Shown piece by piece: positions 33,789 to 63,919 of a stretch of DNA of 64,000 nucleotides. Under the pieces are notes generated by a model. The model did not search any database. It was given only the letters and a program-made list of their open reading frames with translations, and was not told the DNA's origin. The DNA is taken from the NCBI GenBank assembly GCA_008080735.1, contig SHMW01000002.1, forward strand, positions 54,285 through 118,284, read 5' to 3'. Positions within the stretch are counted from its first letter, which is position 1, and each line of letters starts with the position of its first letter. Source of the DNA: Promethearchaeota archaeon. GTDB taxonomy: Archaea > Asgardarchaeota > Lokiarchaeia > Sigyniarchaeales > SOKP01. The translations under genes were made by a program, and so were the position numbers.

Positions 33789-34535
33789 ATGAGCAAGATC
33801 GATATAGATGAGCTATTAAAAATACTCCCTAAACTCATCCGAGAAAATGATACAGTGAAAGGAGCAATTATCAGTGCGCTCTCTGGAGTGGTTGCCACAC
33901 ACGAAGATATTGTAGAATTGAATAAAGCGATGGACAAGCGATTCGAGGCAATGCAGAAGACGATGGACAAGCGATTCGAGGCGATGGACAAGCGATTCGA
34001 GGCAATGCAGAAGACGATGGACGAACGATTTGAGGCAATGCAGAAGACGATGGACAAGCGATTCGAGGCGATGGACAAGCGATTCGAGGCGATGGACAAG
34101 CGATTCGAGACGATCGAAGTGGACATTTCAGAATTAAAAAACATGGTTGGAAATATTCAACAAACACTTGGAAAACCCTTTGAGCAATTTGCTCGTAATG
34201 TTGTGGTTAGAATTCTTGATGGAGAGGGTATGGAAAATGTACAATTAGAAAGTAGGAAATTCAGAGATCCAGAACGGTTCGTTTCTGAAGGGATCGAAGA
34301 GGTGGAGATAGATGGATTCTCTCTCACTCCTCCTATAGTGGTTGAAATAACATCTATATTGAGAAGTACGGAAAAAGTACACAAATTTCTAAGAAAGAAG
34401 GAATTTTTAGAAAGAAAATATCAAAAAGACTTTCGAGGCTTCTTCATCGCAGCAAGCACAGAATTTCCGTCTGAAGAGATAGGTGAAATAACCGTTTTAC
34501 TGCGCAAGAAGAATTCCGAACTACTAAATTTATAA
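33789..34535 (+). CDS. Coiled-coil protein with PD-(D/E)xK-like C-terminal domain
   Basis: 248 residues. After a short helical head, residues 48-108 are built of repeated heptads MDKRFEA and MQKT, encoded by near-perfect DNA repeats. The C-terminal domain (about 115-248) resembles DUF3782-type nuclease-fold proteins, with EIDGFSLTPPIVVEIT: D175 and E186 sit at catalytic-type positions but the expected Lys two residues later is T188. It may be an inactive or altered nuclease with a long coiled-coil stalk. Stops three bases before the oppositely oriented wHTH gene ends. Confidence 0.6.
   Translation: MSKIDIDELLKILPKLIRENDTVKGAIISALSGVVATHEDIVELNKAMDKRFEAMQKTMDKRFEAMDKRFEAMQKTMDERFEAMQKTMDKRFEAMDKRFEAMDKRFETIEVDISELKNMVGNIQQTLGKPFEQFARNVVVRILDGEGMENVQLESRKFRDPERFVSEGIEEVEIDGFSLTPPIVVEITSILRSTEKVHKFLRKKEFLERKYQKDFRGFFIAASTEFPSEEIGEITVLLRKKNSELLNL
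33930..34112 (+). repeat. In-frame tandem repeats: seven 21-bp and three 12-bp units
   Basis: Units of 21 bases (encoding MDKRFEA with small variants) and 12 bases (MQKT) are arranged 21-12-21-21-12-21-12-21-21-21, total 183 bases, in frame with the host ORF. Several units are identical. Length changes by multiples of 21 or 12 would keep the coiled coil in frame, so copy number may vary between strains. Confidence 0.93.
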
Positions 34536-37733: not shown

Positions 37734-39755
37734 ATGACAGGAAATCCGTCTGATTTGGATACGGGTAAAGTAGAGAGGTCTAAATCTCAACAACTCGTGA
37801 ATGGAAGATACGATGCGGAAGATATTAAGGTTTTAAAGGGGCTTGAAGGAGTTCGGCGGAGGCCCGCTATGTATATTGGCGATACAGGAACTAAAGGATT
37901 GCATCATCTTATTTTTGAAGTTCTCGATAATTCTGTGGATGAAGCCATCGCAGGATTTGCCGATTACATTAAAGTCACCTTTTTTGAGGATGGGTCGGTT
38001 CAAATAAAGGATAACGGGCGGGGTATTCCAGTGGATAACCATAAGGAATACGATAAACCCGCTGTCGAAGTTATTATGGAACACTTGCATTCGGGGGGAA
38101 AATTCGATAATAAAAGCTATAAAATATCGGGAGGTCTTCACGGAGTAGGATTGTCCGTTGTGAATGCGTTAGCTGAATGGCTGGTTGTAGAAATTAATCG
38201 CGATGGTCATTGTTACACACAGAGATTTGCCAAGGGATATAAAGCTTCAGAGCCAGAAATAACGCCTTGCGACGAGGACCAGCACGGAACGCTTATCAGG
38301 TTTTTCCCAGATTCAGAAATTTTTACATTCGATAGCGAAGATGAAGAGACATTTAATTTTGATACCATTGCAAATCGGATGAGGGAATTAGCTTTTCTCA
38401 CTCCACAAGCGAAATTCGAGATATATAATCGTATAACGGAAGAACGGGAAGTTTTTCATTATGAGGGCGGATTAAAAGAGTTTATTAAGCACTTGAATCA
38501 AGATAAAAAATCCTTACATAATCAAATAATTCATATCCAAGATAATTACGAAGAAAAGGGAGATGTTGTAGAAATCGAAATAGCGATGCAATATACCCAA
38601 GGCTATCAGACAAATCTCCTTACATATTGCAATACCATTAACACCATTGAAGGAGGCACACACCTTACGGGTTTTAAGTCAGCATTAACAAGAACACTAA
38701 ATTCTTACGTAGAGGAATTTATGGCAAAAAAATATCAAAAACATTCTTTAAGTGGCAGCGACACAAGAGAGGGACTTTCCGCGGTCATTTCCATTAAACT
38801 TCCGGACCCCCAATTTGAAAGTCAAACGAAGATTAAATTAGGAAATCCCGAAGCCCGCCAAGCAGTAAGCCAAGTACTTTCCGATGAATTAATGAAATTT
38901 CTGGAGCAGAATCCGGACGTAGGTCAAAAGATTGTAAAAAAATCGATCGATGCAAAGAAAGCCCGTGAGGCCGCCAAGAAAGCAAGACAATTAATCAGAA
39001 GAAAGTCTGCATTAGATAATGCGCGCATGCCTGGAAAATTAGCAGATTGTTCTTCTAGTAATCCAGAAGAATGTGAGATTTTTATAGTAGAAGGAGATTC
39101 TGCTGGAGGTTCTGCCAAACAGGGCAGAGATCGAACATATCAAGCGATATTACCTATTCGAGGTAAGATCTTAAATGTTGAAAAGGCCCGTATTGATAGG
39201 ATCCTACGCAACAATGAAATTCAAGCCATCATCAAAGCTTTGGGAGTGGGTATCCAAGGGGTAAGTGAGGAAGATTTTGATATTGAAAAACTACGGTATC
39301 ACAAAGTAATTATCTTTTGCGATGCAGATGTTGACGGAGCACATATCGAGACACTCCTATTAACATTCTTTTTCCGATATATGCGACCGCTTATTGACAA
39401 TGGGTATTTATATGTCGCGGCTCCTCCCTTATATAAACTAAGCTATCGGAGTACGGAGCAGTATGTCTATACCGATAAGCAGCGAGATAAGGTAATGGAA
39501 GAGATTGTGGATAAGTATGATCTCGAGAATAGAAGTTCTATAAAAATAAAACGATACAAAGGGTTAGGGGAGATGTCTCCCGATGAGCTTTATCGCACTA
39601 CCATGAATAAAGAAACTCGGATCCTAAAACGGATTGTATACGAGGATCACTTGGAGACTGACCAAACCTTTACACGATTAATGGGTAAAGAAGTGACGCC
39701 CAGAAAGAAATTTATCATCAATAATTATGATGAAGTAAATATATTGGATATTTAA
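37734..39755 (+). CDS. gyrB: DNA gyrase subunit B
   Basis: 673 residues. GHKL ATPase domain (VLDNSVDEAIAGF, DNGRGIPV, GGLHGVGLSVVNALAEWL), transducer, and TOPRIM domain with EGDSAGGSAKQGRDR and the metal-binding FCDADVDGAHI; then the short C-terminal tail (RYKGLGEM). Bacterial-type gyrase introduces negative supercoils. Followed by gyrA 46 bases downstream in the same direction. Archaeal gyrases are known to derive from bacteria. Confidence 0.96.
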   Translation: MTGNPSDLDTGKVERSKSQQLVNGRYDAEDIKVLKGLEGVRRRPAMYIGDTGTKGLHHLIFEVLDNSVDEAIAGFADYIKVTFFEDGSVQIKDNGRGIPVDNHKEYDKPAVEVIMEHLHSGGKFDNKSYKISGGLHGVGLSVVNALAEWLVVEINRDGHCYTQRFAKGYKASEPEITPCDEDQHGTLIRFFPDSEIFTFDSEDEETFNFDTIANRMRELAFLTPQAKFEIYNRITEEREVFHYEGGLKEFIKHLNQDKKSLHNQIIHIQDNYEEKGDVVEIEIAMQYTQGYQTNLLTYCNTINTIEGGTHLTGFKSALTRTLNSYVEEFMAKKYQKHSLSGSDTREGLSAVISIKLPDPQFESQTKIKLGNPEARQAVSQVLSDELMKFLEQNPDVGQKIVKKSIDAKKAREAAKKARQLIRRKSALDNARMPGKLADCSSSNPEECEIFIVEGDSAGGSAKQGRDRTYQAILPIRGKILNVEKARIDRILRNNEIQAIIKALGVGIQGVSEEDFDIEKLRYHKVIIFCDADVDGAHIETLLLTFFFRYMRPLIDNGYLYVAAPPLYKLSYRSTEQYVYTDKQRDKVMEEIVDKYDLENRSSIKIKRYKGLGEMSPDELYRTTMNKETRILKRIVYEDHLETDQTFTRLMGKEVTPRKKFIINNYDEVNILDI

Positions 39756-39801
39756 TTTGCTATATTTAAATTCTAAATTCTATTATTAAGAGTGCGTATT
39801 T

Positions 39802-42228
39802 TTGACAACGGAAAATATAAAGGACATTCGACTTAAGGAAGAGATGGAAAACAGCTATATCGACTATGCTATGTCGGTTGTGGTTGGAAGGGCAATCCCA
39901 GATGTGAGAGACGGATTAAAACCTGTACATAGACGTATTATCTGGTCCATGACCGATAATAACCACTTTTACAACCGACCGCACGTAAAGTCTGCCAGAA
40001 TCGTCGGGGACACTTTAGGAAAATATCATCCTCACGGCGATGCGGCGGTGTATAATAGTTTAGTACGTATGGCCCAAGACTTTTCAATGCGGTATCCCTT
40101 GATGGATCCACAAGGAAATTTTGGTTCTATTGACGGAGACCCGCCGGCAGCAATGCGATATACGGAAACACGGTTATCTCGTATCGCAAATGAGATGGTG
40201 GAGGATATTGATCGAGACACGGTTGATTTTCAACCTAACTTTGATAATAGTTTAGAAGAACCCGAATATTTACCATCAAAACTTCCAAATGTATTAATAA
40301 ATGGTACAAAAGGAATTGCGGTGGGAATGTCCACTTCAATGGCACCCCATAACCTGATAGAGGTGTGCCAAGGAATTATCTCGACCATTGATAATCCCGA
40401 TATCTCAATCGAAGAACTAATGGAGATTATCAAGGGCCCCGATTTTCCCACAGGAGGGATAATTACTAATACCAACGGTATCTACAATGCGTACTCAACG
40501 GGAACTGGGCGAATCCCTATTAAAGGGAAAGTTGGATTAGAAGAAAAAGGGAATAAAAGAAGGCTAATCATTACTGAAATTCCTTATCTGCTCAATAAAT
40601 CCTCTCTTATCGAACAAATTGCGAATTTAATCAAAGAAGGAATCATTAAGGATGTGTCCGATATGAGAGACGAGTCTGATAGGAAAGGGATGCGTATAGT
40701 ATTAGATTTGACCCGTAAAGCCCAGCCAAAAATCATTGAAAATATTCTCTACAAACGTTCTCGCTTGTTTACGAGCTTTAGCATTATCAACTTGGTTTTG
40801 ATTAATGGTGGGAAGCAACCTAAGATCCTCACCTTAAAGGAAATGATTCAAGAATATATTAATCATCGATTAGATATCGTGTATCGGAGAAATCAGTATG
40901 AACTCAAGAAAGCAAAAAAACGACTTCATAAGGTCGAAGGGCTTATCATCGCGTTAAATGACATTGATAACGTTGTGAACATCATAAAAGGTGCTGCCGA
41001 CAGAAATGACGCCGAGCAAAAGCTAATGGACAAATACAAGCTCTCGGAGATACAAGTCAAAGCTATTTTAAGTATGCCTCTCTCACGTCTTACAAATTTA
41101 GAACAGCAAAAATTATTTGATGAAGAAAAAGAACTTAAGGCAAATATCAAAGAATTTGAAAATATTTTAGCAAGCAAGCAGCGAAGACTCGACATTATAA
41201 AAGAAGAACTCGCCGAAATAAGTAAAACGTATGGAGACGAAAGAAGAACACAGATTATCGAGCAAAGAGCAATAAAGGACATCTCTAAAATAGATTTAAT
41301 TAAAAAAGAGCCCACCATTGTCATTTTTACGAAAAATCATTACATTAAACGGATTTCTATTAAGGAGTATAGAACACAAAATCGAGGCGGGAGGGGGAAA
41401 AAAGGAATGGAAGTGGATGATGAAGATTTTATTAATGATTTATTTGTGTGTTCCACCCACGATACGATCCTTTTCTTTACCTCAAAAGGGCGCATCTACT
41501 CAATCAGATGTTTTGAAATTCCCCAACAAACCCGTACCGCAAAAGGAAAACCCGTCGTAAATATCATTAAATTACGAGATGATGAGGAGATCTCAGAGAT
41601 GATCCCGATTAATAACTTTAACACCGATGACAGGCTTATAATGGTTACCCGGAACGGGACGGTTAAAAAGATTAGATTAAAAATGTTTTCAAAGGTTCAG
41701 AGTACAGGTATTCGGGCACAACGGATTCGGAAGGATGATAAATTAGTGAGCGTGAAAAAGCTTTCTAATGAGCTGCAAGATATTTTTATCGCGACAAAAA
41801 AGGGATATGCGATACGATTTGATGAGTCTGAATTACGGGATTTGGGAAGAAATGCGATTGGTGTCCGAGGAGCTGATCTTCGGGAAGATGATGAAGTTGT
41901 GGATTCATTGCTTGTAACAGATGATGATATAGTGCTAACGATTACCGAAAAAGGAAATGGCCAACGGACTTATATCAAGGAATATCGGAAGACGGGTCGA
42001 GCTGCGAAAGGTGTGAAAAATATAAGCTTAAGCGAGGACGATCAAGTGATTGCGGTTCGGATTGCTAAGGTAAAAGATCTTATCGTGGGAACGGAGCAAG
42101 GTCAAGTGATCAGAGTACCCGTGGAATCAATTCGGATCACTCACAGGAAGGCGAAAGGAGTTCGAGTCATTAATCTCTATGAAGATGATTCGGTCTCAGC
42201 TATTGGTAAATGCGCGAAAAAAATTTAG
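39802..42228 (+). CDS. gyrA: DNA gyrase subunit A
   Basis: 808 residues, TTG start. N-terminal winged-helix core begins MSVVVGRAIPDVRDGLKPVHRRII; the active-site tyrosine is in AAMRYTETRL; C-terminal beta-pinwheel domain contains the GyrA box QNRGGRGKKGME, which distinguishes gyrase from topoisomerase IV. Forms A2B2 with the gyrB product. Confidence 0.96.
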   Translation: MTTENIKDIRLKEEMENSYIDYAMSVVVGRAIPDVRDGLKPVHRRIIWSMTDNNHFYNRPHVKSARIVGDTLGKYHPHGDAAVYNSLVRMAQDFSMRYPLMDPQGNFGSIDGDPPAAMRYTETRLSRIANEMVEDIDRDTVDFQPNFDNSLEEPEYLPSKLPNVLINGTKGIAVGMSTSMAPHNLIEVCQGIISTIDNPDISIEELMEIIKGPDFPTGGIITNTNGIYNAYSTGTGRIPIKGKVGLEEKGNKRRLIITEIPYLLNKSSLIEQIANLIKEGIIKDVSDMRDESDRKGMRIVLDLTRKAQPKIIENILYKRSRLFTSFSIINLVLINGGKQPKILTLKEMIQEYINHRLDIVYRRNQYELKKAKKRLHKVEGLIIALNDIDNVVNIIKGAADRNDAEQKLMDKYKLSEIQVKAILSMPLSRLTNLEQQKLFDEEKELKANIKEFENILASKQRRLDIIKEELAEISKTYGDERRTQIIEQRAIKDISKIDLIKKEPTIVIFTKNHYIKRISIKEYRTQNRGGRGKKGMEVDDEDFINDLFVCSTHDTILFFTSKGRIYSIRCFEIPQQTRTAKGKPVVNIIKLRDDEEISEMIPINNFNTDDRLIMVTRNGTVKKIRLKMFSKVQSTGIRAQRIRKDDKLVSVKKLSNELQDIFIATKKGYAIRFDESELRDLGRNAIGVRGADLREDDEVVDSLLVTDDDIVLTITEKGNGQRTYIKEYRKTGRAAKGVKNISLSEDDQVIAVRIAKVKDLIVGTEQGQVIRVPVESIRITHRKAKGVRVINLYEDDSVSAIGKCAKKI

Positions 42229-47431: not shown

Positions 47432-47651
47432 AATTCTTCTTAGGTTTTTTCCATGGATTGTCCTGAGAGCTTCTTATAATGATTGAGGACTGCTTGGCGC
47501 GCTGCGTATACAAACCCTCGCTTTACGTTCACACCGGTAATCGCTATCGTCTCATAAATCAGTGTATCTCCTAACTTTGCAGTGTCTAACACCTGTCGAA
47601 TCTTGGATACATCGACAATGTCTTCCAAATCCCGTTTGTTGGCTAACACCA
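47432..47651 (-). repeat. 3' GTPase repeat (intact-gene copy)
   Basis: Direct repeat partner of 45011-45230, 213 of 220 identical; same orientation, copies 2.2 kb apart. Between the copies lie tnpB and MNT relics, the toxin-antitoxin pair and a second MKSFE ORF. Confidence 0.93.
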
Positions 47652-48054
47652 CCATTGGAACCTCTGGAGGCTCGCCGGGCCCTTTTGGAAGTAATTTATT
47701 ACCATAAAATTTTAACAGTTCTTTTAGGGACCATATATTTTCCTCCCATTGATCAATCAAGCTGTCCCATACAAAGATAATCGCATCCGTACCTTTTAAA
47801 ACCGTTTGCCTTTGGAACTTGTGCCTTCTCTGGCCTGCTACAGTATATACTTGGAAAACTACGTTGGAAACTTTTGCAACGACCCGATCAAAAAAGAGCG
47901 TTCGTCCAGTTGGGTCTTGAATTTGCTGCATATCGCCCGAAGCTAAACCTTCTTTATTATACACCCATTCAAGAGCCGTAGTCTTCCCACCTAAGGAAGG
48001 TCCATAGAAGCAGATTTTAAATACTAAAGTTCCATCTCCTCGACGACTTGGCAT
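47440..48054 (-). CDS. MglA/Arf-like small GTPase
   Basis: 204 residues. P-loop GPSLGGKTT (18-26), switch II TVAGQ (71-75) in place of DxxGQ, as in MglA (TVPGQ), NKRD (139-142) for guanine specificity, and G5-like AITG (171-174). Basic N-terminal MPSRRGDG. MglA-family GTPases are polarity and motility switches in bacteria and abundant in Asgard archaea, commonly working with Roadblock proteins (one at 26989). No prenylation motif. Its 3' third is duplicated at 45011-45230. Confidence 0.9.
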   Translation of the reverse strand: MPSRRGDGTLVFKICFYGPSLGGKTTALEWVYNKEGLASGDMQQIQDPTGRTLFFDRVVAKVSNVVFQVYTVAGQRRHKFQRQTVLKGTDAIIFVWDSLIDQWEENIWSLKELLKFYGNKLLPKGPGEPPEVPMVVLANKRDLEDIVDVSKIRQVLDTAKLGDTLIYETIAITGVNVKRGFVYAARQAVLNHYKKLSGQSMEKT

Positions 48055-48392: not shown

Positions 48393-49030
48393 TTAGACTT
48401 TTCAATGAAGAGGGCTTAGAAGGAGGAGGAGGAATGAAGAGGGCTTAGAAGGAATGGTTCCCAATACACCTCCTGGGCGACCATCTCGTCTTAGCGAGGA
48501 GCAAGAGGAACAATTACGTGAGGATATCTCCAAGCACCCCCGTGAATTAGGATATGAGTTTAGCAATTGGGAAGGGAAGAACGTTTCCCATCACATTGAA
48601 AAAGTCTTTGATATAGAGATAGGGGTTCGTCAGGTACAGAGAATCTTGCATAAACTCGGATTTTCGCTTCAACGACCCAAATATGTATTTCCTAAAGCAG
48701 ATCTGGATAAACAAAGAGAATTTAAAGAGAATTTTAAAAAAGTTTGGCTACTCTCGGAAAAGACGGCGTAGTTCTATTCCAAGATGAAGCTAGGGTCCAA
48801 TATTCGCCCACTATCACCAGAATGTGGGCATTGAAGGGACAAAAACCAGAAATCAACACATATGGTGGACGCTCCCGGCAGCACTTGATTAGGGCAGTTG
48901 ATCCTGGTTCAGGAAAAGTCCATGTAGTGTTCTCCAAAACGCTAAAAGCCGGACAATTTCAACATTTTTTAGAAGGTCTGCTTTTTAAATATAAGGATAA
49001 AGGAAATTGGAAAAATTCCTCTCAAGTGTA
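48393..49030 (+). pseudogene. IS630-family transposase relic
   Basis: VRLFNEEGLEG (from 48393) joins, after a 29-bp duplication, VPNTPPGRPSRLSEEQEEQL ... LHKLGFSLQRPKYVFPKADL (48454-48771). A frameshift near 48740 follows, then GKDGVVLFQDEARVQYSPTI with the first catalytic Asp of the DDE domain. The remaining Asp and Glu are absent and the N-terminal HTH head is cut away at the LRR junction. Inactive. IS630 elements insert at TA. Confidence 0.82.
48404..48453 (+). repeat. 21-bp direct repeat, 29-bp period, inside the IS630 relic
   Basis: The sequence at 48404-48424 recurs exactly at 48433-48453 with only 8 G/A bases between copies. The 29-bp tandem duplication is not a multiple of three and shifts the transposase frame. 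Confidence 0.88.
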
Positions 49031-49660
49031 AGAGACGATCCTCCGATTTACCCTCTTCATACACGGTAAGCGGTTAGCTATCTTATAGGCTATTAACTTA
49101 AATTATATAATTCGCGCCCACTCTCCCGATGCGATGGCGAGTTATCCTTTTTTGATTTACTCGTTCTTATTATCTGACGTTTTGGATAGTGTTTTATCTC
49201 GTGAGTTACCTTATGATTTTATCTTTATAAACATTTCTGTTCGACACCTTGATTTGGGTTTCGACATGGCTCATTATTTGGATTTTGTAGAGATTTGGTT
49301 CTCAATTGAGCTCCCGAATATTTTGCTAAATCACAAAATTCATGGTTTTAAACTAACAAATGCTCGAGCACAAATCCGCACACTCTTTATGAAAAGATAG
49401 AGTATCTTCCACTTACTTCCCATCCTTTTTTACCTATGTTCATATGAAAGGAGTAGCAAATCGCTTTCAATGGTAAAAAATAAAAGCTTTATAGTAAAAA
49501 ATAAAAATTAGAAACGCATATTGAAGAATGAAAAGTTCAGTATCAAAGTCACAATGAAAATTTAAGACTTCACAATTTTAGTTTAAAAATACTATGTGCT
49601 AATTTATAGTAACCGAAACAATTTAGTTACCAAGTAAAAAATTTTAAGGAGCAATATTAC
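49031..49660. other. 630-base stretch without a convincing gene
   Basis: Holds a plus-strand open frame of 88 codons (49134-49400) with hydrophobic composition but no start signal and no recognisable family; it may be a remnant of inserted DNA. 49400-49660 is AT-rich, and the last 60 bases contain the AAGGAG ribosome site of the next gene. Confidence 0.4.
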
Positions 49661-53641: not shown

Positions 53642-54712
53642 TTGAACAATACCCAATATTTACGCCCGATTATTAAGCAATTCAAAAGATTAAAGAAAAT
53701 TCCATGGACTCACTTAACTAATCTTCCAACCCCGATCGAACGCCTTAATGGTCTTGAGAAAAAACTGAATTTTAACCATATCTGGATAAAGAGAGACGAT
53801 CTTACGAGCCCCCATTATGGGGGAAATAAATCTCGTAAGCTTGAGTATCTGTTGGCTGGAGCAGAACATGAAGGCAAAAAGATTATCAAAACGGTGGGGG
53901 GGATAGGCTCTAATCACGCCGTTGCCACGAGTATCTTTTGTAAGCTTTTAGGGATGAAATGTAAGCTTTTTTTAGTCCCGCAACCGAATTCGGAGCATTG
54001 TCGGACAAATCTGCTTTTAGATTATTATTATGGTGCCGAATTAAATTATTGTGAAGATCCTTCAGAATATCCAGAGGATATTGATATTCCTCGTGGAGGG
54101 ACAAGCCCGATCGGGAACTTAGGCTATGTAAACGCGGCATTGGAACTAAAGGAGCAAATAGATGAGGATATCTTACCTGAACCTGATATAATCTTTGTCA
54201 CCAAAGGCAGTTCTGGCACTCTAGCGGGATTATTACTCGGATTTGAGCTTTTAGGTCTCAAAACCATATTATACGGTGTTACGATTATTAACTCAAATAC
54301 AAAGGAAGATGTGATCACCCATGCGATGGATACTTGGGAGTTAATGAAGCATACTCATGACAATTTATGTGAAGTAGAACGTGAAAATTTGAAAAATCGC
54401 TTGGTGGTATTGGATAAATTTTATGGTGAGGGTTATGGATATACCACAGTGAAGGGAGAAAATGCTATTAGATTGATCAAAAAAACCGATGAGATACTCC
54501 TTGATTCTACTTATACAGGCAAAACGATGTCTGCTATGATTTCTTTTATTCGTTCGAATAAGAACGATCTTCTCGATAAACACATTCTATTTTGGAATAC
54601 GTTTAATTCGGTAAATGTCAATGAAAAAATAAAAAACCTAAATTATCGGGTTTTGCCCAAGGAGTTTCATAAATTTTTTAATGGGACAATCTCTATCGAA
54701 AACACTATCTAA
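53642..54712 (+). CDS. PLP enzyme, D-cysteine desulfhydrase/ACC deaminase-like
   Basis: 356 residues of fold-type II PLP. LPTPIERLNGLEKKL, RDDLTSPHYGGNKSRKLEYLL with the PLP Lys at 63, VGGIGSNHAVATSIFCKLLG, and FVTKGSSGTLAGLLLGFEL (phosphate loop). Family members remove NH3 (and H2S) from D-cysteine or ACC. TTG start. Slightly longer than the usual ~330 residues. Probable roles: D-amino-acid detoxification or sulfide release. Confidence 0.82.
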   Translation: MNNTQYLRPIIKQFKRLKKIPWTHLTNLPTPIERLNGLEKKLNFNHIWIKRDDLTSPHYGGNKSRKLEYLLAGAEHEGKKIIKTVGGIGSNHAVATSIFCKLLGMKCKLFLVPQPNSEHCRTNLLLDYYYGAELNYCEDPSEYPEDIDIPRGGTSPIGNLGYVNAALELKEQIDEDILPEPDIIFVTKGSSGTLAGLLLGFELLGLKTILYGVTIINSNTKEDVITHAMDTWELMKHTHDNLCEVERENLKNRLVVLDKFYGEGYGYTTVKGENAIRLIKKTDEILLDSTYTGKTMSAMISFIRSNKNDLLDKHILFWNTFNSVNVNEKIKNLNYRVLPKEFHKFFNGTISIENTI

Positions 54713-54982: not shown

Positions 54983-55708
54983 TTATTTAATAAGTAAATT
55001 TTCTAACCATTTCGGTAAGATAAATCCAAAATAGAAGCAGATTGATGAAAATATAAGTATAAACCGAATGATGGGAAGAGTTATAAAATCTAAGGGGATT
55101 TGCGAATCTGCTATTGATCCGATTGTAAAAAGAATAAAACTTGTCAAGAGAAATTTTCCCTTTAACTTTATAATTGCTTGATCAGACCTTATAGATTCTC
55201 GAGAAATAAGAATACCTACAAATAATATATAAAAAATTGTCAAAGTAAGACCGATTTGCAGAAAACCTCGATATTCCACATCTGTTATGCCTTGTAATAT
55301 ACCTAATTGTGTTTCCTGTAGATATTCATTTGAGGAAAATATAAATAACAGGGTTTCCCATACTATTGCGATTATTATTACAATAGCCATAAGAATTCGT
55401 TTTTTATTTTCGAATTTCAATTCTGTTAAAGCTGCTGTGAATAAAATATGAAATCCTGGAATTGCAATGTTTCCCAGTATTAAGTATTGAGTATCTGTAA
55501 GACCAGACCCACCAGTAATTAAAGCTTTTAAAAAGGAGACTGTAGAAGACCACCAAGGACACGCGATTAAAATAATCGCAAATCCCATATATAGAATTGT
55601 TTTTACTCTATATTGGAAATATCTTGAAATTATTATTATTCCTACGATTGTAGAAATAATAACAAAAACGAGACTTAGAGATCCATTTAATATACTATTA
55701 ATATCCAT
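54983..55708 (-). CDS. Seven-TM protein, member A of a local paralogue family
   Basis: 241 residues with seven predicted TM helices. Family features shared with 55828-56571 and 63188-63919: PWWSSTVSFL at the second helix, the loop ISRESIRSDQAIIKLKGKF between helices 5 and 6, and an Arg in helix 7 (PIIRFILIFSS). The overall plan resembles 7TM sensor domains or rhodopsin-like folds, but helix 7 has no retinal-binding Lys. No soluble domain is attached. Function unknown. Confidence 0.7.
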   Translation of the reverse strand: MDINSILNGSLSLVFVIISTIVGIIIISRYFQYRVKTILYMGFAIILIACPWWSSTVSFLKALITGGSGLTDTQYLILGNIAIPGFHILFTAALTELKFENKKRILMAIVIIIAIVWETLLFIFSSNEYLQETQLGILQGITDVEYRGFLQIGLTLTIFYILFVGILISRESIRSDQAIIKLKGKFLLTSFILFTIGSIADSQIPLDFITLPIIRFILIFSSICFYFGFILPKWLENLLIK

Positions 55709-55827
55709 AAAATATTCCCTAAAATAGATATTATAGGTGGAAAATGCATTAAAGGATAAATATCTTAGCTATTAATATTAACAACAAATTGAGATAAATC
55801 GGAAATTTCGACTAAAAAATAATTGGT

Positions 55828-56571
55828 TTAAGCCATCATTTTATCTCCTATTAATAATTTAGCTAGCCTATCGGACATTAAAAAACCCAAATAATATTCT
55901 ATCGCACTTGAGATCAATAAGATTCTAATTATTATTAAGATTATCGGATTTGTGAACCCTCCCGCATCGAATATTCCTCCAATCGCCAATGAAAACATTC
56001 CTGCTAAAATAAACTTCCCTTTAAGCTGGATTTTTGGGATATCTGATTTCATAGATTCTCGAGCAAATAATATACCTGTGATTAGAATAGTACCAATTGA
56101 AAACATAAGAAATGATAATCCATACCATTGATGCTCCGAATTGAAATTTCCTATAGTTGCTATTTGGTCGGGATCGCTAAACAAAAAATATATGAAAAAG
56201 ACTTCATATAATCCACAGATGATGATATATGGGGGAAATACTTTTTTAAACCAATTTGGATAAGCTAGTTTTAAAAATGAATACATCCAACATAATAGAG
56301 CAATAAAAATAAACGCATCGCCGAAGAATAAAAATTCAATCTGAGTAAATTCATAATTAAAGAGTAGATAGGCAAGAAAGGAAAAAGCGGAGCCCCACCA
56401 TGCAGAACTCAAGAAGATTAAGGCTAATCCTACTGTGATTAATTCCTTCATCTTAAGTTCAAAATATTTGGTAAGAATTCGAAGACCAATAATTATGGCT
56501 ATAAACACAAAAATCACACTTAAAATTCCATAAAGAATCTCATAGCCTTGTATTCCATTTTGGAGCATCAT
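55828..56571 (-). CDS. Seven-TM protein, member B
   Basis: 247 residues, seven TM helices. Matching motifs: SAWWGSAFSFL, FARESMKSDIPKIQLKGKF, and IIIRILLISSA with Arg in helix 7. Encoded upstream of member A in the same direction, 120 bases apart. Divergent from the winged-helix regulator at 56793, which may control it. Confidence 0.7.
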   Translation of the reverse strand: MMLQNGIQGYEILYGILSVIFVFIAIIIGLRILTKYFELKMKELITVGLALIFLSSAWWGSAFSFLAYLLFNYEFTQIEFLFFGDAFIFIALLCWMYSFLKLAYPNWFKKVFPPYIIICGLYEVFFIYFLFSDPDQIATIGNFNSEHQWYGLSFLMFSIGTILITGILFARESMKSDIPKIQLKGKFILAGMFSLAIGGIFDAGGFTNPIILIIIRILLISSAIEYYLGFLMSDRLAKLLIGDKMMA

Positions 56572-56792
56572 ACTAATTTATTGGTTTTTCATATAAAAAA
56601 GGTTATTGCTCATGTTTTTATTAAGATCTTATTATGATATTAATTTTATACTGCGCTGCTGGTTTATAGACCTTATTCTAAGATAATGAGGATTCACTTC
56701 AATTTTTTCGTTTTTAAAAATTAATTAAAAAGAAAGAATTATACGAAATAATTACTTGTTACCTTAAAGAACCAATAATATACCTCAATATT

Positions 56793-57518
56793 ATGACCTC
56801 TGATACTGAAGGCATAAAGAAGCAACTGACACAAAAAGTAGAGGTAATGAAGCTTTTGAATACGGTCACTCGTCTGAGGATAATCTTAATTTTATTGGTT
56901 TATGGAAAGCAGAGTCTGGCAGAATTAGAAGAAAAAATTGGACGAACTAAGGCCACCATTACTCATCATATTAAGAAATTTGAAGAATTAGGAATTATAA
57001 AGACTACGAGAAAAAATGCTCGGGGGTCAATTGATGCGAAAGTGTATCAATTAATTCCTGAGTTTTTAGATTTAATCCAATTAAGTCCCGAAGAGCTAAA
57101 TGTTATCGAGGAGGATGACCAGAAAGATATATTGCAATTCTTACTACTAAGGGATAAATGGATGTTTGAGATGATCAGAAACATCTTTCAATTAATAAAC
57201 CTATTCTATAAGGATTTGGAATTTGATTTTGTAAATCTGAATTTAAAAGATTTTGAGGATGTTAAAAAACAATATTTTGAAAACTTAGTTCAGTATGATA
57301 TCTTATTTCTTAATAAGGAACATAAGGACCAATATAGTGAGCTTTTAAAGTCCTTAAAGTCCAAATTGAACAAGAAAAGAGAAGAAGAAACAAATTACAT
57401 TGTAAATGATGCTCCATATCTGATATTCAACTCGATAATCCCCTTGGAAGATATTCTGAAATATGATCCCGAGACAAGAAAATTCATTCGTTTCTTCAGA
57501 GTTTTCGATAAAGAATAA
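56793..57518 (+). CDS. ArsR-like winged-helix regulator
   Basis: 241 residues. wHTH in the first 85 residues: LLNTVTRLRIILILLVYGKQ, LAELEEKIGRTKATITHHIK, KFEELGIIKTTRKNARG. Long helical C-terminal domain (about 100-240) of unknown ligand or dimer role. It lies between the divergent 7TM genes and the ADH-AOR series, so it probably regulates one or both. Confidence 0.82.
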   Translation: MTSDTEGIKKQLTQKVEVMKLLNTVTRLRIILILLVYGKQSLAELEEKIGRTKATITHHIKKFEELGIIKTTRKNARGSIDAKVYQLIPEFLDLIQLSPEELNVIEEDDQKDILQFLLLRDKWMFEMIRNIFQLINLFYKDLEFDFVNLNLKDFEDVKKQYFENLVQYDILFLNKEHKDQYSELLKSLKSKLNKKREEETNYIVNDAPYLIFNSIIPLEDILKYDPETRKFIRFFRVFDKE

Positions 57519-57597
57519 CTACTTCTATCTAATAATCAACTCTGAAAAGGATTTGATTCTATTCATTATAGGTTGATGATTTATTTTTGTTTTTTTT

Positions 57598-57682
57598 CGT
57601 TATATATAATGATATATATCGTTTAAAAACCTTATTAAACATTTGATTATTTAAATAGGGTATCAAATATCTTTATATAAGA
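57598..57682 (+). promoter_or_regulatory. Probable control region of the ADH-AOR series
   Basis: A 10-bp inverted repeat with one mismatch, CGTTATATAT/ATATATATCG (57598-57621, four-base spacer), then GTTTAA/TTAAAC (57621-57640), and a good TATA-like CTTTATATAA (57671-57680) about 75 bases before the ADH start. Possible operators for the neighbouring wHTH. Inferred. Confidence 0.4.
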
Positions 57683-57751
57683 TTTTTACTAATTATAATA
57701 ATATTGATTAACCAAATGGAATCACACGATAAATAAAAAAAAATGTTTTAA

Positions 57752-59161
57752 GTGAAAAATATGTCAAAAAGTAAGACAGATCAAGAATCAAAAATAGAAA
57801 AGACATCTTCAAAAGGGAAGAGGGAGATGACTTGGTATGAAGACCCGAATCTGAGGAACCTCTACGTCAAAAGCGCCTCTAACGCTATGAAGGGTTATCA
57901 CCTACCGATTACCACCCCAAAAACAGTTTTTACAGGTACTAACAGTTTAACAGACTTTACAATTCATTTAGGTGCGTTTTTAGATGAAGATGAGAAGAGG
58001 GTTCTCATTATTGTAGATAAAGATCTGCGAAAAATGGGAGAGCGAGTTGCGGACTTTATTAAAGAAAAGCGGGATATAGAGAGCCGAATTTTTGACGAAG
58101 TCCTCCCTGAAGTCCCCAAGTCGAAAATTAACAAAGCGATTGATATTTGTAAAGAATTTGATCCAAAAGTGTTTATTGCGGTTGGTGGTGGGTCTGCGAT
58201 TGATATGTCGAAATTGATTCTTCTTTATTATGAAAAACCGGAAATAAATGTAAACCAGATGATGCCTCCAAGCTATTTAGGGCTTAGAAAAAAGGTCTAC
58301 ATATTAGCAGCTATTCCTACAACCAGCGGTACGGGGGCAGAAGGCTCTTTTAACGCAATGATTTATGATGACACGCGAAAACCACCCGTGAAGGTTGCTG
58401 TTGCATTGTATGAATTTTGTCCTGATTTTGTGGTATTACATCCCGACTTTGTAAAAACAATGCCTAAATGGCTCACGATGGGTACGGGAATGGATGCTCT
58501 GGCTCACGCAACCGGAGCATATGTATTAATTGGCAGTTCACCCTTCACAGATTCTATGAATATTACAGGGATCGAATTGATTTTACAATATTTACCGAGA
58601 GCAGTAGCAAGAGGAGATGATATGGAAGCGCGCGAAAAAATGCAATTAGCAGCTTATCTTGCTGGCATTGGATTTATCAATACCAGCGCTGCGGGGGTAG
58701 AGCACGCGCTTGGACATTCCTTCGGGGCCGTTTTCCACGTCCATCACGGAATTACAGTCGGACTCTTCTTGGCACCCTCTGTTGCGTATCAAGCAAAAGT
58801 CACGGATAGATTTATTAAGCTTGCGGAAGTCTATGCCATAGAACTAAGCGATAAACCCCGGCATGATGTCATCACGGAGATTGCCCATATGTCCAGAGAG
58901 GAAGCATTGAGAACCTTTTTTAAAAACCTTTTCAAATTTATGAATATGGTCGGAGCTCCAAAATCCATTTCAGAGTTAGATATGCCACAAATAGATAAAG
59001 CGGATTATGAGGCAAACTTAGGATTATTAGCAGAACAAGCATTTAATGATACATGTGCGCTATATTCTAGTAGACCGTTTACCCTGGAAAATATACGCCG
59101 GATCTACGAAATTGCATGGGATAATGATATTGAAAAGTTAATTAAGTTATTTAAAACCTAA
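57752..59161 (+). CDS. Iron-containing (group III) alcohol dehydrogenase
   Basis: 469 residues. NAD(P)-binding GGGSAIDMSKLI and GTGAEGS with the T-S-G-T signature; metal ligands in GTGMDALAHATGAYV (Asp and His) and AAGVEHALGHSFGAVFHVHHG (His). The N-terminal ~30 residues are a lysine-rich lead-in. Oxidises alcohols or reduces aldehydes. GTG start, with ATG 57761 as alternative. The stop is followed immediately by the AOR gene, so the two should be co-translated. Confidence 0.88.
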   Translation: MKNMSKSKTDQESKIEKTSSKGKREMTWYEDPNLRNLYVKSASNAMKGYHLPITTPKTVFTGTNSLTDFTIHLGAFLDEDEKRVLIIVDKDLRKMGERVADFIKEKRDIESRIFDEVLPEVPKSKINKAIDICKEFDPKVFIAVGGGSAIDMSKLILLYYEKPEINVNQMMPPSYLGLRKKVYILAAIPTTSGTGAEGSFNAMIYDDTRKPPVKVAVALYEFCPDFVVLHPDFVKTMPKWLTMGTGMDALAHATGAYVLIGSSPFTDSMNITGIELILQYLPRAVARGDDMEAREKMQLAAYLAGIGFINTSAAGVEHALGHSFGAVFHVHHGITVGLFLAPSVAYQAKVTDRFIKLAEVYAIELSDKPRHDVITEIAHMSREEALRTFFKNLFKFMNMVGAPKSISELDMPQIDKADYEANLGLLAEQAFNDTCALYSSRPFTLENIRRIYEIAWDNDIEKLIKLFKT

Positions 59162-59176
59162 TTGGTGATTATGAAA

Positions 59177-61027
59177 ATGTATGGATATAATGGAAAAATA
59201 GCCTATATCAACTTGTCAGATGGTACGATTGATATACAAAATTTAGATGAGGAAATAGCTAAAAAATATATCGGAGGAGCCAGTCTATCGGCTAAATTGA
59301 CCTACGATCTTCTTTCTGCCAATGATTTTGAGACTTTGAAGAGCGACCCGTTTAGTGAGATTAATCCTCTTATTTTCTCTACTGGACCCTTGACGGCCTC
59401 TTTAGTTCCTTCTAGTAGTCGATATTGCGTCACAGCGATCTCTCCTTTAACTGGAATCTGGGGAGAGTCGACTTCAGGAGGATACTTTCCCACCGCATTG
59501 AGAAGGAGTGGGTATGATGCCATCATCATTACGGGTAGAGCAAAAACTCCTCAAATGATAGTGATAAGAGATGGAGAGATCTCTATATTAGACGCTCAGG
59601 ATATTTGGGGGGACGATACGAGGACTGCTATAGGAAAAATTCGTGCGGACCTAGAAGATGACAAAATACGCGTTGCGTGTATTGGAAAAGGCGGAGAGAA
59701 GAAAGTTAGATATGCATGTATCATCAATGATGAGGGCCGGGCAGCTGGACGTTGCGGAATAGGAGGAATTATGGGAGATAAGCACCTTAAAGCAATTGCT
59801 ATAAAAGGTTCAAATAAAATTGAATATGCTGATTTGGATAAAATGAGAAACACTATAAAGCCGATTAGAACGGTAATGGAACAGAATTTTGGCCTTAATT
59901 TTTTCAGCCATTATGGTACACTATGCTATATGGATATGGGGATGGTTTTGGGTGATGTTCCTCACAGATATTTCACTTCAACCGACTTTAGAGCCGAATA
60001 TCTCACTGGAAGAGCACTTAAAGAAAAATATCCCGTCTTGAACTATAATTGTGCGGGATGTACTGTAGCATGTGGGCGAACAACTATTGTCGAAAAGAAT
60101 GGAGAGAAACTCGAAATTGACGGACCTGAATATGAAACCACGGCTGCCTTCGGTCCTTTATGTGATGTACTTGACTGGGATCCGATTCTTGAATGTAACC
60201 ATCTATGTAACTTACAAAGCTTGGATACCATATCTGCAGGAGTCAGTATCGCATTCTTATTTTATTTAGGGGAAGAAGGACTCGTTAAGGAGAAAATCAC
60301 TCCTTTATTGAAAGATATGTCCTATGAGGATCTGAGATTTGGGAATGCTGAAATTATGGTAAAATTACTTAACCAAATTATTAACAGGGAAGGTATTGGA
60401 GACCTTCTTGCAGAAGGAGTGAAACGCATAGCTGAGGAACTTGGAGTGGATCCAGAATTAGCCGCACATGTAAAAGGATTGGAAGTCCCTATGCATGATC
60501 CACGAGCATATGCGATTCAAGCGTTAGCGTATGAAATATGCAATGTTGGAGCAAGTCATGAAAAACCAGATATTTTTAATATAGAGGGAGATACGGCTAC
60601 AATTCCACGTGTTAAAACAGGAGATCGATTTAGTCCAGAAGGAAAAGAAAAAGGTTTAGTTTTATACTGGAATTTGACGAACTTATATGATTCATCTGTT
60701 ATTTGTAATTTTTCCCACATCCAACAAAATCAGCTCGCAAGATTATTAGGCGCATCGACAGGATTTAAAGAAATAGCTAAGAAAAAAGGTGCATTAGAAG
60801 CAGGAGAGAGAGGAAATCAGTTAAAAAGATTAATCAATTGTAAACTTGGAATTACCAGGAAAGATGATAAACTTCCAAAAATCGTTACAAAAGTACTTCA
60901 TCATGGTGGTGCGATGAATGTGAAATTAGATCTCGAGGACAATCTTAAGAAGTTCTATAAATATGCGGGATGGGATTGGGAATCTGGATGCCCTACGGAA
61001 GAAAAAATTCAAGAAATGGAAATTTAA
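59177..61027 (+). CDS. aor: Aldehyde:ferredoxin oxidoreductase
   Basis: About 616 residues. Tungstopterin enzyme: MYGYNGKIAYINLSDG start, RCGIGGIMGDKHLKAIAIKG near 200 (pterin site), [4Fe-4S] ligands CAGCTVAC (297, 300, 304 in the longer frame) and Cys 515 (SSVICNFS). Catalyses aldehyde to acid with ferredoxin reduction. Start 59177 is favoured by GGTGAT at the usual distance; TTG 59162 is the longest form. The gene follows ADH with virtually no gap. Confidence 0.92.
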   Translation: MYGYNGKIAYINLSDGTIDIQNLDEEIAKKYIGGASLSAKLTYDLLSANDFETLKSDPFSEINPLIFSTGPLTASLVPSSSRYCVTAISPLTGIWGESTSGGYFPTALRRSGYDAIIITGRAKTPQMIVIRDGEISILDAQDIWGDDTRTAIGKIRADLEDDKIRVACIGKGGEKKVRYACIINDEGRAAGRCGIGGIMGDKHLKAIAIKGSNKIEYADLDKMRNTIKPIRTVMEQNFGLNFFSHYGTLCYMDMGMVLGDVPHRYFTSTDFRAEYLTGRALKEKYPVLNYNCAGCTVACGRTTIVEKNGEKLEIDGPEYETTAAFGPLCDVLDWDPILECNHLCNLQSLDTISAGVSIAFLFYLGEEGLVKEKITPLLKDMSYEDLRFGNAEIMVKLLNQIINREGIGDLLAEGVKRIAEELGVDPELAAHVKGLEVPMHDPRAYAIQALAYEICNVGASHEKPDIFNIEGDTATIPRVKTGDRFSPEGKEKGLVLYWNLTNLYDSSVICNFSHIQQNQLARLLGASTGFKEIAKKKGALEAGERGNQLKRLINCKLGITRKDDKLPKIVTKVLHHGGAMNVKLDLEDNLKKFYKYAGWDWESGCPTEEKIQEMEI

Positions 61028-61070
61028 TACAATCTTTTTTTTTTATATTATAGCTTATTTATAAAGATAA

Positions 61071-61826
61071 TTGATGAATATTATGACAAAATTGATTTAC
61101 TTGGGTTGCCTTTCCAAAAAACACTATGAAAAGACCTGTGCTAACGCGATAAGGGTGATCAATTATTTAGATGAGCAATATCAAGTGATTGATGATGCTC
61201 CTTGTTGCGGGTCCTTAACCTTTCATTACGGTAATAATGAGAAAACTAGAAACCACATAAAATATGTGAATTCTTGGTTTCAATATCATAATATAGATAA
61301 AATTCTGACCATTTGCGCTGGATGTTATCAATATCTTACCAGGTATTATCCCGTGATCCTTGGTTCTGAATTCAATATTAAAGTGGAACATATCATCCAA
61401 TTCATAGCTAGGCCTGATAATTTGAAAAAATTAGATTTGAAATACAATGGAAAAAAACTGAAAATTTCTTATCATGATGCCTGTCATTTAAAAAATGCCA
61501 TTCAACCCGTTATAGAGGAGCCAAGGACTATACTCAATTCAATTGACAAAATAACTTTACATGCAATGGAAAATGAAAAATTATATAGTATTTGTTGTGG
61601 CTCTGGCGGAGGCGTGTATTCTATATTCAAAGAAAACAGTGATTTTAATACCCAAACTATATTTGATCAAGCTAAACGAGCTAAAATCTTATTAACAGGG
61701 TGTCCATTCTGTTATACCGCATTTAAGCGAGTTGGGGCTGAGATTAATTATAAAAAAACAATAATGAAATTTGAAGATTTTATTGCTACAATAAAATTTG
61801 GAAACGGAGGGAAAACATTGGAATGA
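61071..61826 (+). CDS. CCG-domain Fe-S protein (HdrB/LutA-like)
   Basis: 251 residues with two CCG domains: C13, C45-C46, C82 and C85, then C138, C175-C176, C211 and C214, the CX31-39CCX35-36CXXC pattern that binds the noncubane [4Fe-4S] cluster in HdrB and is also found in LutA/GlpC. Forms a soluble electron-transfer subunit. The stop overlaps the next start by four bases (ATGA), so it is translationally coupled with the LutB-like gene. ATG 61083 (MTKLIYLG) is also possible. Confidence 0.85.
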   Translation: MMNIMTKLIYLGCLSKKHYEKTCANAIRVINYLDEQYQVIDDAPCCGSLTFHYGNNEKTRNHIKYVNSWFQYHNIDKILTICAGCYQYLTRYYPVILGSEFNIKVEHIIQFIARPDNLKKLDLKYNGKKLKISYHDACHLKNAIQPVIEEPRTILNSIDKITLHAMENEKLYSICCGSGGGVYSIFKENSDFNTQTIFDQAKRAKILLTGCPFCYTAFKRVGAEINYKKTIMKFEDFIATIKFGNGGKTLE

Positions 61827-63124
61827 GTATGGGAGAAGATTATTATCGTGAGTTGAAAGCCAAAATTGAAAAACTTCGAAATGAGGACTCCTTAGAACAT
61901 AAATTCCATGAATTTTGGAAGTTGGGATGTACCGCAAAATATAAAGCTTTCGAATTGAAATTTTTATACGAAAATTCAAGTAGAGAATTTGTTGAGAAAT
62001 ATAAGGAGCAGCTAATCAAAATTAGGGAAGAATGCATCGAAGATTTAGAAAAGAATGTCGAAAAATGTATGAAAGTGATGAAGAAAGCCAATAATATGAG
62101 GGTATATTATGCCAAAACTAATGAAGATGCACATCGATATTTCATGGAAGAATTAGGAGGCACACGAGTATTGTTTAAGTCTAAATCCAATGAAGCTAAA
62201 GATATTGGATTAATTGAATTTTTAGAGGAGGAGGGAATTGAACTCATTGAGACAGATATGGGTGATATTATCTTGGAATTAATGGAATATGACCACCCCA
62301 CATATCAATTAGGACCCGGAGCACATTTTAAGGAAGAAGAAATAGTTCAAAAAATAAAAGAAAAACATGGAGTAGAATTAGAACCAAATGCACAAGCAAT
62401 AGTAGATTATTATAGGGAAAATTTTAGGAAAGAATTGCTAAATAAAGTAAAAATTTCTTTAACTTCTGCCAATGCAATCTCTGCCGACGATGGAACGATT
62501 TTTCTGGGTGAAAATGAAGGAAATATAAGTCTTTTGACAAGGGCAGTGGATACGCATATAGTTGTATGCGGCATTACTAAAATTGTGCCCACGATAATAG
62601 ATGCTTTGATTATAACGAAAATACAAGAGCGGATAAATAATGTGTCTTTTAGATACATATCTCTTATTTCTGGCCCATCTAATACTTCTGATATCCAAGG
62701 GAAACAAGTACAAGGGATGTATGGTGCGAAAGAAGTTGTGGTCATTTTTGTTGATGATTGGAGGATAAGAGCAAAAGAAGAAGATATGCCATATAAAGAT
62801 TTTCTTAAATGTATTTCATGTAAGAGCTGTATATATCTATGTACCGCATTTCGTGCATTTGGTAATCTCTATGCGTCAAAATATGGGATCGGAGGTCCAA
62901 TGATCATCCGAGATTACATCCATAATGGAATTGAAGCAGCTGTGAAAGATGGCTTGTTTCTGTGTAGTGGTTGCGAAAATTGTACGAATTGGTGTCCCGC
63001 GGGAATAGATCTCGCTCAAATTATAAGAATGTTAAAAAAAGAAGCCACAGATAATAATTTATGTCCCCTTACTCTAAAAGAATACCAAGAAAAAATAATA
63101 AATGAAAAAAATCCTTTTCTTTAA
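61823..63124 (+). CDS. LutB-like LUD-domain protein with two [4Fe-4S] motifs
   Basis: 433 residues. LUD domain (about 100-330; TSANAISADDGTIFLGENEG), then two ferredoxin-type Cys motifs CISCKSCIYLC and CSGCENCTNWCPAG. LutB works with LutA and LutC in lactate oxidation; LutC is missing here. The CCG protein next door replaces LutA. The pair may link 2-hydroxy acid or aldehyde oxidation to an electron carrier. The final ~100 residues include the ferredoxin motifs and KEATDNNLCPLTLKEY. Confidence 0.87.
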   Translation: MSMGEDYYRELKAKIEKLRNEDSLEHKFHEFWKLGCTAKYKAFELKFLYENSSREFVEKYKEQLIKIREECIEDLEKNVEKCMKVMKKANNMRVYYAKTNEDAHRYFMEELGGTRVLFKSKSNEAKDIGLIEFLEEEGIELIETDMGDIILELMEYDHPTYQLGPGAHFKEEEIVQKIKEKHGVELEPNAQAIVDYYRENFRKELLNKVKISLTSANAISADDGTIFLGENEGNISLLTRAVDTHIVVCGITKIVPTIIDALIITKIQERINNVSFRYISLISGPSNTSDIQGKQVQGMYGAKEVVVIFVDDWRIRAKEEDMPYKDFLKCISCKSCIYLCTAFRAFGNLYASKYGIGGPMIIRDYIHNGIEAAVKDGLFLCSGCENCTNWCPAGIDLAQIIRMLKKEATDNNLCPLTLKEYQEKIINEKNPFL

Positions 63125-63187
63125 CCCTATATTTTCTTTCTAATTCAGCTATAATTACTATTTATTCCCAAATTTTTGGTTATTAAG

Positions 63188-63919
63188 TTATTCTAATTTG
63201 TTCCGTATCCATTTTGGTAATGCCAATCCCAGATAAAGAAAGAGGAATAAAGCCATAATGCAAATCCTAACGGGGATAAGAAGGTATTGATCTGTAATGA
63301 TACTATCTACAATAGCAAATATATAGAGTGAAAACCCAATTATTAAAAATCGTCCACGCCATTTAAGATCCCTTTGGTCTGATTCTAAGGCCCTTCTTCC
63401 AAGATGAATACCTGTAATTATTACAGCAATGCTAATAAGTATCGCAACAATAAGGATAAATCCCTGATAATAATGATCCAATTCAGTTTGATTTACTACT
63501 GGTAATAATTCTTTGACGGGAGTTCCAGTTGGTAAGAAAAGGGTATATATGATAAGTATATCAGATATTATTATAAAAATCCCCGTAATCACAATAATCT
63601 GATTTCTTCTTTTTTGATATACTAAATCAAGATAAATATATAACCAACTTAAAAACGCAATAGGATATAGTGTGGAACCAATTAAAATATAAGCAGCATC
63701 ATTTAGCACCAATTCTTGAGTAATTAACCAACTTAAATAATCAATTACTCCTGGTAACCAAGGGGTAATAGCAAGACTAAGTGTGATAAATACCAAATAT
63801 AAGGTTTTTTCTTTTGTTTGAAATGCGCGAATTAAGGTATGAGAAGCGAGCAAAATAACAAACACGACCGCAATCAACATAATTATCGCGTTTATTTGTA
63901 CGACTGGACTTAAACTCAT
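63188..63919 (-). CDS. Seven-TM protein, member C
   Basis: 243 residues, seven TM helices; relative of the proteins at 54983 and 55828. Matching motifs: TPWLPGVIDYLSWLI (helix 2), GRRALESDQRDLKWRGRF (loop), PVRICIMALFLF (Arg in helix 7). It converges on the AOR-series genes, ending 60 bases after the LutB-like stop. More divergent than A and B. Function unknown. Confidence 0.68.
   Translation of the reverse strand: MSLSPVVQINAIIMLIAVVFVILLASHTLIRAFQTKEKTLYLVFITLSLAITPWLPGVIDYLSWLITQELVLNDAAYILIGSTLYPIAFLSWLYIYLDLVYQKRRNQIIVITGIFIIISDILIIYTLFLPTGTPVKELLPVVNQTELDHYYQGFILIVAILISIAVIITGIHLGRRALESDQRDLKWRGRFLIIGFSLYIFAIVDSIITDQYLLIPVRICIMALFLFLYLGLALPKWIRNKLE

Follow-up and report, generated by a model that had tools for sequence, protein, structure and literature searches.

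A conserved alcohol dehydrogenase–aldehyde:ferredoxin oxidoreductase gene pair beside LutAB-like and seven-transmembrane genes in a Lokiarchaeal genome

Genes for an iron-type alcohol dehydrogenase (ADH), an aldehyde:ferredoxin oxidoreductase (AOR), a CCG protein and a LUD/ferredoxin protein follow one another in a draft Lokiarchaeal genome, with genes for seven-transmembrane (7TM) proteins on both sides and a gene for a winged helix-turn-helix (wHTH) regulator on one, which raises the question of whether such a locus works as a single unit. The locus lies in the window, i.e. the whole stretch of 64,000 nucleotides that was analysed, which covers positions 54,285 to 118,284 of contig SHMW01000002.1 of a Promethearchaeota archaeon (G000:C2:54285-118284). 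A first-pass annotation had described the four redox genes as one series, placed two 7TM genes and the wHTH gene on one side of it and a third 7TM gene on the other, and suggested an alcohol/aldehyde-oxidising unit that passes electrons through the LUD and CCG proteins to a membrane component. All eight open reading frames (ORFs) were recovered in this arrangement, and Pfam bore out the domains of the four redox proteins. As to the suggested electron route, the ADH–AOR redox unit proved to be real and deeply conserved, and the CCG–LUD pair recurs near AOR genes, but a 7TM electron acceptor found no support. The comparisons were made inside the Lokiarchaeal phylum, except where another scope is given.

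The ADH–AOR pair

The ADH gene (57752-59161, + strand) encodes a protein with the Fe-ADH and ADH_Fe_C domains (PF00465/PF25137), which place it among the iron-containing (group III) alcohol dehydrogenases, and it has NCBIfam and PDB matches. The candidate metal-binding His/Asp motifs DALAH and HALGHSFGAVFHVHHG are present, and the best NCBIfam matches are the ADH domain of AdhE (251 bits against a cut-off of 951) and lactaldehyde reductase (204 against 523 bits). The AOR gene (59162-61027, + strand) follows with a junction of 0 bp. Its start was called at a TTG codon with in-frame ATGs 9 and 15 bp downstream, therefore the true gap may be slightly longer. The AOR protein is covered over its whole length by the Pfam domains AFOR_N (PF02730, 231 bits) and AFOR_C (PF01314, 324 bits) of this tungstopterin family, and its best match is the Pyrococcus furiosus AOR (1AOR, 332 bits). 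The cysteines C297, C300 and C304 (CxxCxxxC, 297-304), the distal Cys 515, a GPEYE motif and a C-terminal His align with 1AOR; we take these to be the [4Fe-4S] cysteines and the Glu and His near the active site. Judged by its domains and by these cysteine and active-site residues, the protein is a member of the aldehyde:ferredoxin oxidoreductase family.

A homologue search of 58 relatives found close AOR homologues almost everywhere, and the regions around 40 of these homologues were read. All 39 loci with an AOR identity of at least 42% have ADH directly beside AOR, and the sole exception among the regions read is an AOR paralogue of 36% identity in G004, which has no adjoining ADH. The flanks of the pair differ between genera, and the pair itself is kept in two loci of another class of the phylum (L223 and L224, in G057 and G132), where the AOR identity is 44-45%. 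Several genomes carry two ADH–AOR versions, with AOR identities of about 60% and about 52%, which indicates that the pair is old and has been duplicated. ADH–AOR is thus strongly conserved as a unit of two genes, both between genera and beyond the class.

A combination of these enzymes is known from bacteria, in the AOR–ADH pathway of Thermoanaerobacter, acetogens and Pelobacter, in which an Fe-S/tungstopterin AOR and an ADH interconvert acid, aldehyde and alcohol; acids are converted to alcohols in Thermoanaerobacter (PMC10816221) and ethanol is oxidised in Pelobacter (PMC4275255). Unlike in that pathway, the window genes form a conserved adjacent pair in Asgard archaea, which in one genome is then followed by CCG–LUD, and the literature searched held no description of an ADH–AOR pair in Asgard archaea. 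Multiple AORs, which are expressed, have been reported from Asgard archaea (PMC11291895), and the present genome has 13 of them. The precedents in both directions, together with the multi-copy and expressed AORs, speak for an ordinary aldehyde redox valve, in which ADH–AOR would serve for the clean-up of aldehydes from amino-acid fermentation, for ethanol oxidation or for the reduction of acids to alcohols, while CCG–LUD would be a ferredoxin-linked module of general use that acts on another substrate and came to lie beside it in this genome.

The CCG–LUD pair beside ADH–AOR

The gene for the LutA-like CCG protein (61071-61826, + strand; PF02754, two CCG domains) lies 43 bp behind AOR and overlaps by 4 bp with the gene for the LUD protein (61823-63124, + strand; PF02589 and Fer4_8), which resembles LutB and the N-part of LdhH. 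The CCG protein has two sets of CC/CxxC motifs, at 45/82 and 175/211, and its nearest NCBIfam families are the C-parts of TfrB and LdhH, under the curated cut-off. The LUD protein carries two complete CxxCxxCxxxC motifs, at 330 and 381, in line with two [4Fe-4S] clusters, and its nearest families, LutB (TIGR00273, 207 bits) and the N-part of LdhH, are likewise matched under their cut-offs. The motifs and residues of the ADH, CCG and LUD proteins presumably have the roles that are familiar from these families.

LUD homologues of 51-65% identity occur throughout the Lokiarchaeal family. The context of CCG–LUD was sampled in 22 loci (20 fetched contexts, the window and the congener G003), and the two genes are adjacent or overlapping in 21 of them, the remaining locus being cut by a contig end. 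Genes for 2-oxoacid:ferredoxin oxidoreductases (KorA-type; POR_N, TPP_enzyme_C) stand beside the pair in 11/22 loci, some of which also contain genes for an FrhB-like electron-transfer protein and D-serine dehydratase-like genes, and genes for FAD-linked 2-hydroxyacid dehydrogenases (GlcD-type) are near it in 3/22. CCG–LUD is therefore a conserved pair in its own right, LutA/LutB-like and without LutC. The LUD architecture has been reviewed (PMC3924224), and divergent LutA/LutB genes and lactate assimilation have been reported from Lokiarchaeota (PMC8027215), which fits a 2-hydroxyacid role for CCG–LUD. The pair resembles the LutABC/LldEFG system of L-lactate oxidation in its LutA-like protein with two CCG domains, its LutB-like LUD-Fer4 protein and its overlapping genes, but it differs in that the genus has no LutC, i.e. 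no stand-alone LUD protein, and in that the window LUD stays under the LutB equivalog cut-off. Similarly, LdhH, the large subunit of a quinone-linked L-lactate dehydrogenase, is matched in one half by the CCG protein and in the other by the LUD protein, although the window has two split genes and the scores are under the cut-off of 800 bits.

In the window, ADH–AOR is followed head to tail by CCG–LUD on the same strand, no gap exceeding 43 bp, and in G003 the two pairs are 3.2 kb apart and inverted. An AOR-family gene is found within 3.2 kb of CCG–LUD in 6/22 loci, which correspond to about four separate arrangements, since several of these loci belong to sister genomes; in G031 the order is CCG–LUD–AOR, all on one strand, and the gap is 53 bp. 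In a tree of the concatenated CCG and LUD proteins, the copies of the window and of G003 are long branches. Neither of them is the vertically inherited copy of the genus, a grouping that was rejected (approximately unbiased test, p-AU 4e-13), and a single clade of the two was rejected as well (p-AU 0.001, to be read with caution because of the long branches). These results suggest that CCG–LUD was placed next to ADH–AOR twice, separately. The present genome also has a second CCG–LUD pair (L139, G000:C49:30601-31890), and that copy groups with those of other genus members.

Our tentative preference is for a linear oxidation series built from two soluble redox modules, to which a local regulator belongs. 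ADH would convert an alcohol and its aldehyde into each other via NAD(P)H, the alcohol being perhaps a 1,2-diol (propane-1,2-diol, for example). AOR would oxidise the aldehyde or hydroxyaldehyde to the corresponding acid or hydroxyacid and reduce ferredoxin, and the LutAB-like CCG–LUD pair would turn a 2-hydroxyacid into a 2-oxoacid. Compounds of that class are the substrates of the 2-oxoacid:ferredoxin oxidoreductases whose genes are the usual neighbours of CCG–LUD elsewhere. The wHTH protein would probably control the locus, and the 7TM proteins are more probably membrane sensors, or possibly transporters, tied to this regulator than electron acceptors.

Several points weigh against such a series. 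The four-gene order occurs only in the window, as the G002 contig ends at AOR and the G003 locus is split and inverted, and ADH–AOR alone is the rule, so that CCG–LUD is not required for ADH–AOR function. Furthermore, ADH misses all NCBIfam equivalog cut-offs and its substrate is not derivable from its family. None of the five genus genomes yielded a stand-alone, LutC-like LUD gene, all their LUD genes being LutB-like, hence lactate oxidation by LutAB alone remains putative. In addition, the source is a metagenome-assembled genome (MAG) of 4.15 Mb in 140 contigs, 93% complete and 7% contaminated. The aldehyde redox valve is nearly as likely as the linear series, and the near-universal occurrence of ADH–AOR without CCG–LUD among the relatives counts in its favour; what speaks against it is that CCG–LUD is repeatedly near AOR-family genes and has come to lie near this ADH–AOR twice, with separate origins. 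For the many AOR genes of Asgard archaea, which lack assigned partners and substrates, the conserved ADH–AOR pair and its joining with a LutAB-like pair offer chains of substrates that can be tested in the metabolism of Lokiarchaea.

The 7TM family and the wHTH regulator

TM_a (54983-55708, - strand, 241 aa) and TM_b (55828-56571, - strand, 247 aa) precede the redox genes, TM_b being divergent to the wHTH gene, and TM_c (63188-63919, - strand, 243 aa) is convergent to LUD. With identities of 25-33% (E 2e-12 to 2e-21; 33% between TM_a and TM_b) the three are true paralogues, as the first-pass annotation had stated, and none of them matches a Pfam family. They fall into three separate clades of the family tree, TM_a into one of its own, so the genes are not recent local duplicates, and such a duplication was rejected. 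TM_c forms a clade with L062_5922 (support 100/94), and a gene of this clade adjoins LUD in both the present genome and G003.

No literature on this lineage-expanded family was found. The present genome has 34 matches, some of them fragments, whose neighbours are mostly unique and whose contexts are unrelated to one another, and 2-42 copies occur in every Lokiarchaeal-family genome searched among the 58 relatives (loci L001-L030 and L152-L194 cover the present genome and relatives). Copies outside this family are sparse and weakly matching, and of 228 genomes in the phylum 88 have a match; a search with a five-row profile returned 13 loci, all in 'Candidatus Lokiarchaeota archaeon' MAGs.

The proposal that electrons reach a 7TM membrane component draws on the gene order of the window and on the TM_c-clade gene next to LUD in two genomes, but it is very improbable. 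No alignment column of the family exceeds 32% His or Cys, by which a role as heme or Fe-S carrier was rejected, there is no Pfam or PDB sequence relative, and the 34 copies are dispersed. A 7TM gene lies within 5 kb of ADH–AOR in the window, at two G002 loci and at one G003 locus, and in 0/35 loci outside the genus; three other loci have one at 5.4 kb. Judged by the refuting condition of the first-pass annotation, the association of 7TM genes with the AOR series holds in the genus, apart from a short G001 contig that has no 7TM gene near ADH–AOR, and fails at the family level; because several contigs are short, some of these absences could be missed neighbours.

The predicted structures also point away from an electron carrier. 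An AlphaFold2 model of TM_b, built from a 15-row alignment, reached a pLDDT of 92.2 and a pTM of 0.86, and the model of TM_c (pLDDT 86.9, pTM 0.78) has the same fold, with seven transmembrane helices, a beta hairpin that links TM4 to TM5 and a short helix behind TM7. Averaged over 76 members of the family, the charges of the loops alternate in sign, which indicates an N-out/C-in topology, and the conserved membrane residues include W58, W95, E123, D202 and R216. In Foldseek searches the best 50 PDB fold matches were G-protein-coupled receptors (GPCRs) for both models, with query TM-scores of 0.33-0.56, root-mean-square deviations of about 6-10 Å, 9-16% identity and a best E-value of 9e-4; these matches point to a GPCR-like fold and not to that of a cytochrome or a quinone reductase. 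A search of a viral library matched actinophage membrane proteins and viral GPCRs. The 7TM profile had no PDB sequence match up to E 10, and the paralogues matched no GPCR-class Pfam family.

The predicted fold shows some resemblance to that of GPCRs, in its seven helices, N-out orientation, TM4-TM5 hairpin and short helix after TM7, but given the modest TM-scores and E-values, the missing sequence relation and the outcome for HisKA_7TM, homology to GPCRs is not claimed. HisKA_7TM (PF16927) is a prokaryotic 7TM sensor-type domain, which had no match anywhere in the present genome and matched one of 27 paralogues (E 4e-4). Helix register and a basic TM5-TM6 loop are similar in a weak profile match (hhalign, E 0.007, probability 5%), but this match is not significant and the window proteins are stand-alone, without a kinase; membership in HisKA_7TM could not be established. 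Orthologues of GPCRs have been claimed for Lokiarchaea in one paper (PMC11719702) on the strength of ortholog and domain matches; this claim was not relied on.

Taken with the N-out topology and the GPCR-nearest fold, the lack of conserved His or Cys makes a sensor likelier than an electron carrier. The 7TM proteins could instead be transporters or channels for alcohols or acids, in line with the membrane-embedded charges E123, D202 and R216 and with the diverse metabolic neighbours of the genes; this seems quite unlikely, since no transporter was among the fold matches listed for the two separate paralogues. Equally doubtful is the bolder reading of the family as lineage-expanded, stand-alone receptors of GPCR-like architecture, some of them paired with wHTH proteins, with the locus as a receptor-regulator-enzyme unit that would sense and oxidise alcohols or aldehydes. 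If the 7TM proteins are receptors, these close archaeal relatives of eukaryotes would have a sensory repertoire that has gone unrecognised.

The wHTH gene (56793-57518, + strand, 241 aa) encodes an ArsR/MarR-type regulator, with Pfam HTH_20, MarR and HTH_5 above their cut-offs. Of its nine homologues in the genus, four have a 7TM gene at a distance of up to 500 bp, where about 1.6% would be expected (P 8e-6), and three have an AOR at up to 5 kb (P 1.5e-3); these binomial statistics assume uniform placement, and orthologous loci are not fully independent. One 7TM clade, represented by G000:C28, G002:C68 and G002:C375, accompanies wHTH genes. A general association of 7TM genes with AORs was rejected, as 5/45 AORs in the genus have a 7TM gene within 5 kb (7% expected, P 0.23). 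The 7TM family is thus significantly linked to the wHTH family and not to AORs in general. That the 7TM and wHTH genes are chance neighbours in a 7TM-rich genome, with no role for the redox genes, would fit the missing 7TM excess at AORs and the different clades from which the 7TM genes at these loci come; it is nevertheless unlikely, given the wHTH-7TM linkage and the four ADH–AOR loci of the genus, not all of them independent, that have a 7TM gene within 5 kb.

A near-perfect palindrome between wHTH and ADH, CGTTATATAT-AATG-ATATATATCG (57598-57621), is the only copy in the window at up to 3 mismatches and represents a candidate operator for the predicted control of the locus; it was not found in the G002 and G003 loci. 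Two upstream regions shared no motif beyond chance, and a scan for sigma-70-type promoters gave no excess (51 vs 45), although this bacterial model does not apply to archaea.

Further observations

Other arrangements of the same gene families were noted. One is L214 (G000:C36:18956-21692), where a further AOR has a wHTH paralogue 383 bp upstream on its own strand but no 7TM gene beside it. In G003:C86:2521-10560 a wHTH homologue comes first, then a broken 7TM copy, and some 4 kb farther along there are three 7TM genes in tandem.

Elsewhere in the window, two overlapping ORFs with HTH_33 and DDE_3 (48454-49031), a few kb from the locus, are probably a broken IS630-type transposase, and 47440-48054 holds a gene for a small Arf/Ras-like GTPase. 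The DNA gyrase genes gyrB and gyrA stand side by side at 37734-42228 in this archaeal genome, and a protein with repeated coiled-coil units (MDKRFEAMQKT-like) is encoded at 33789-34535.

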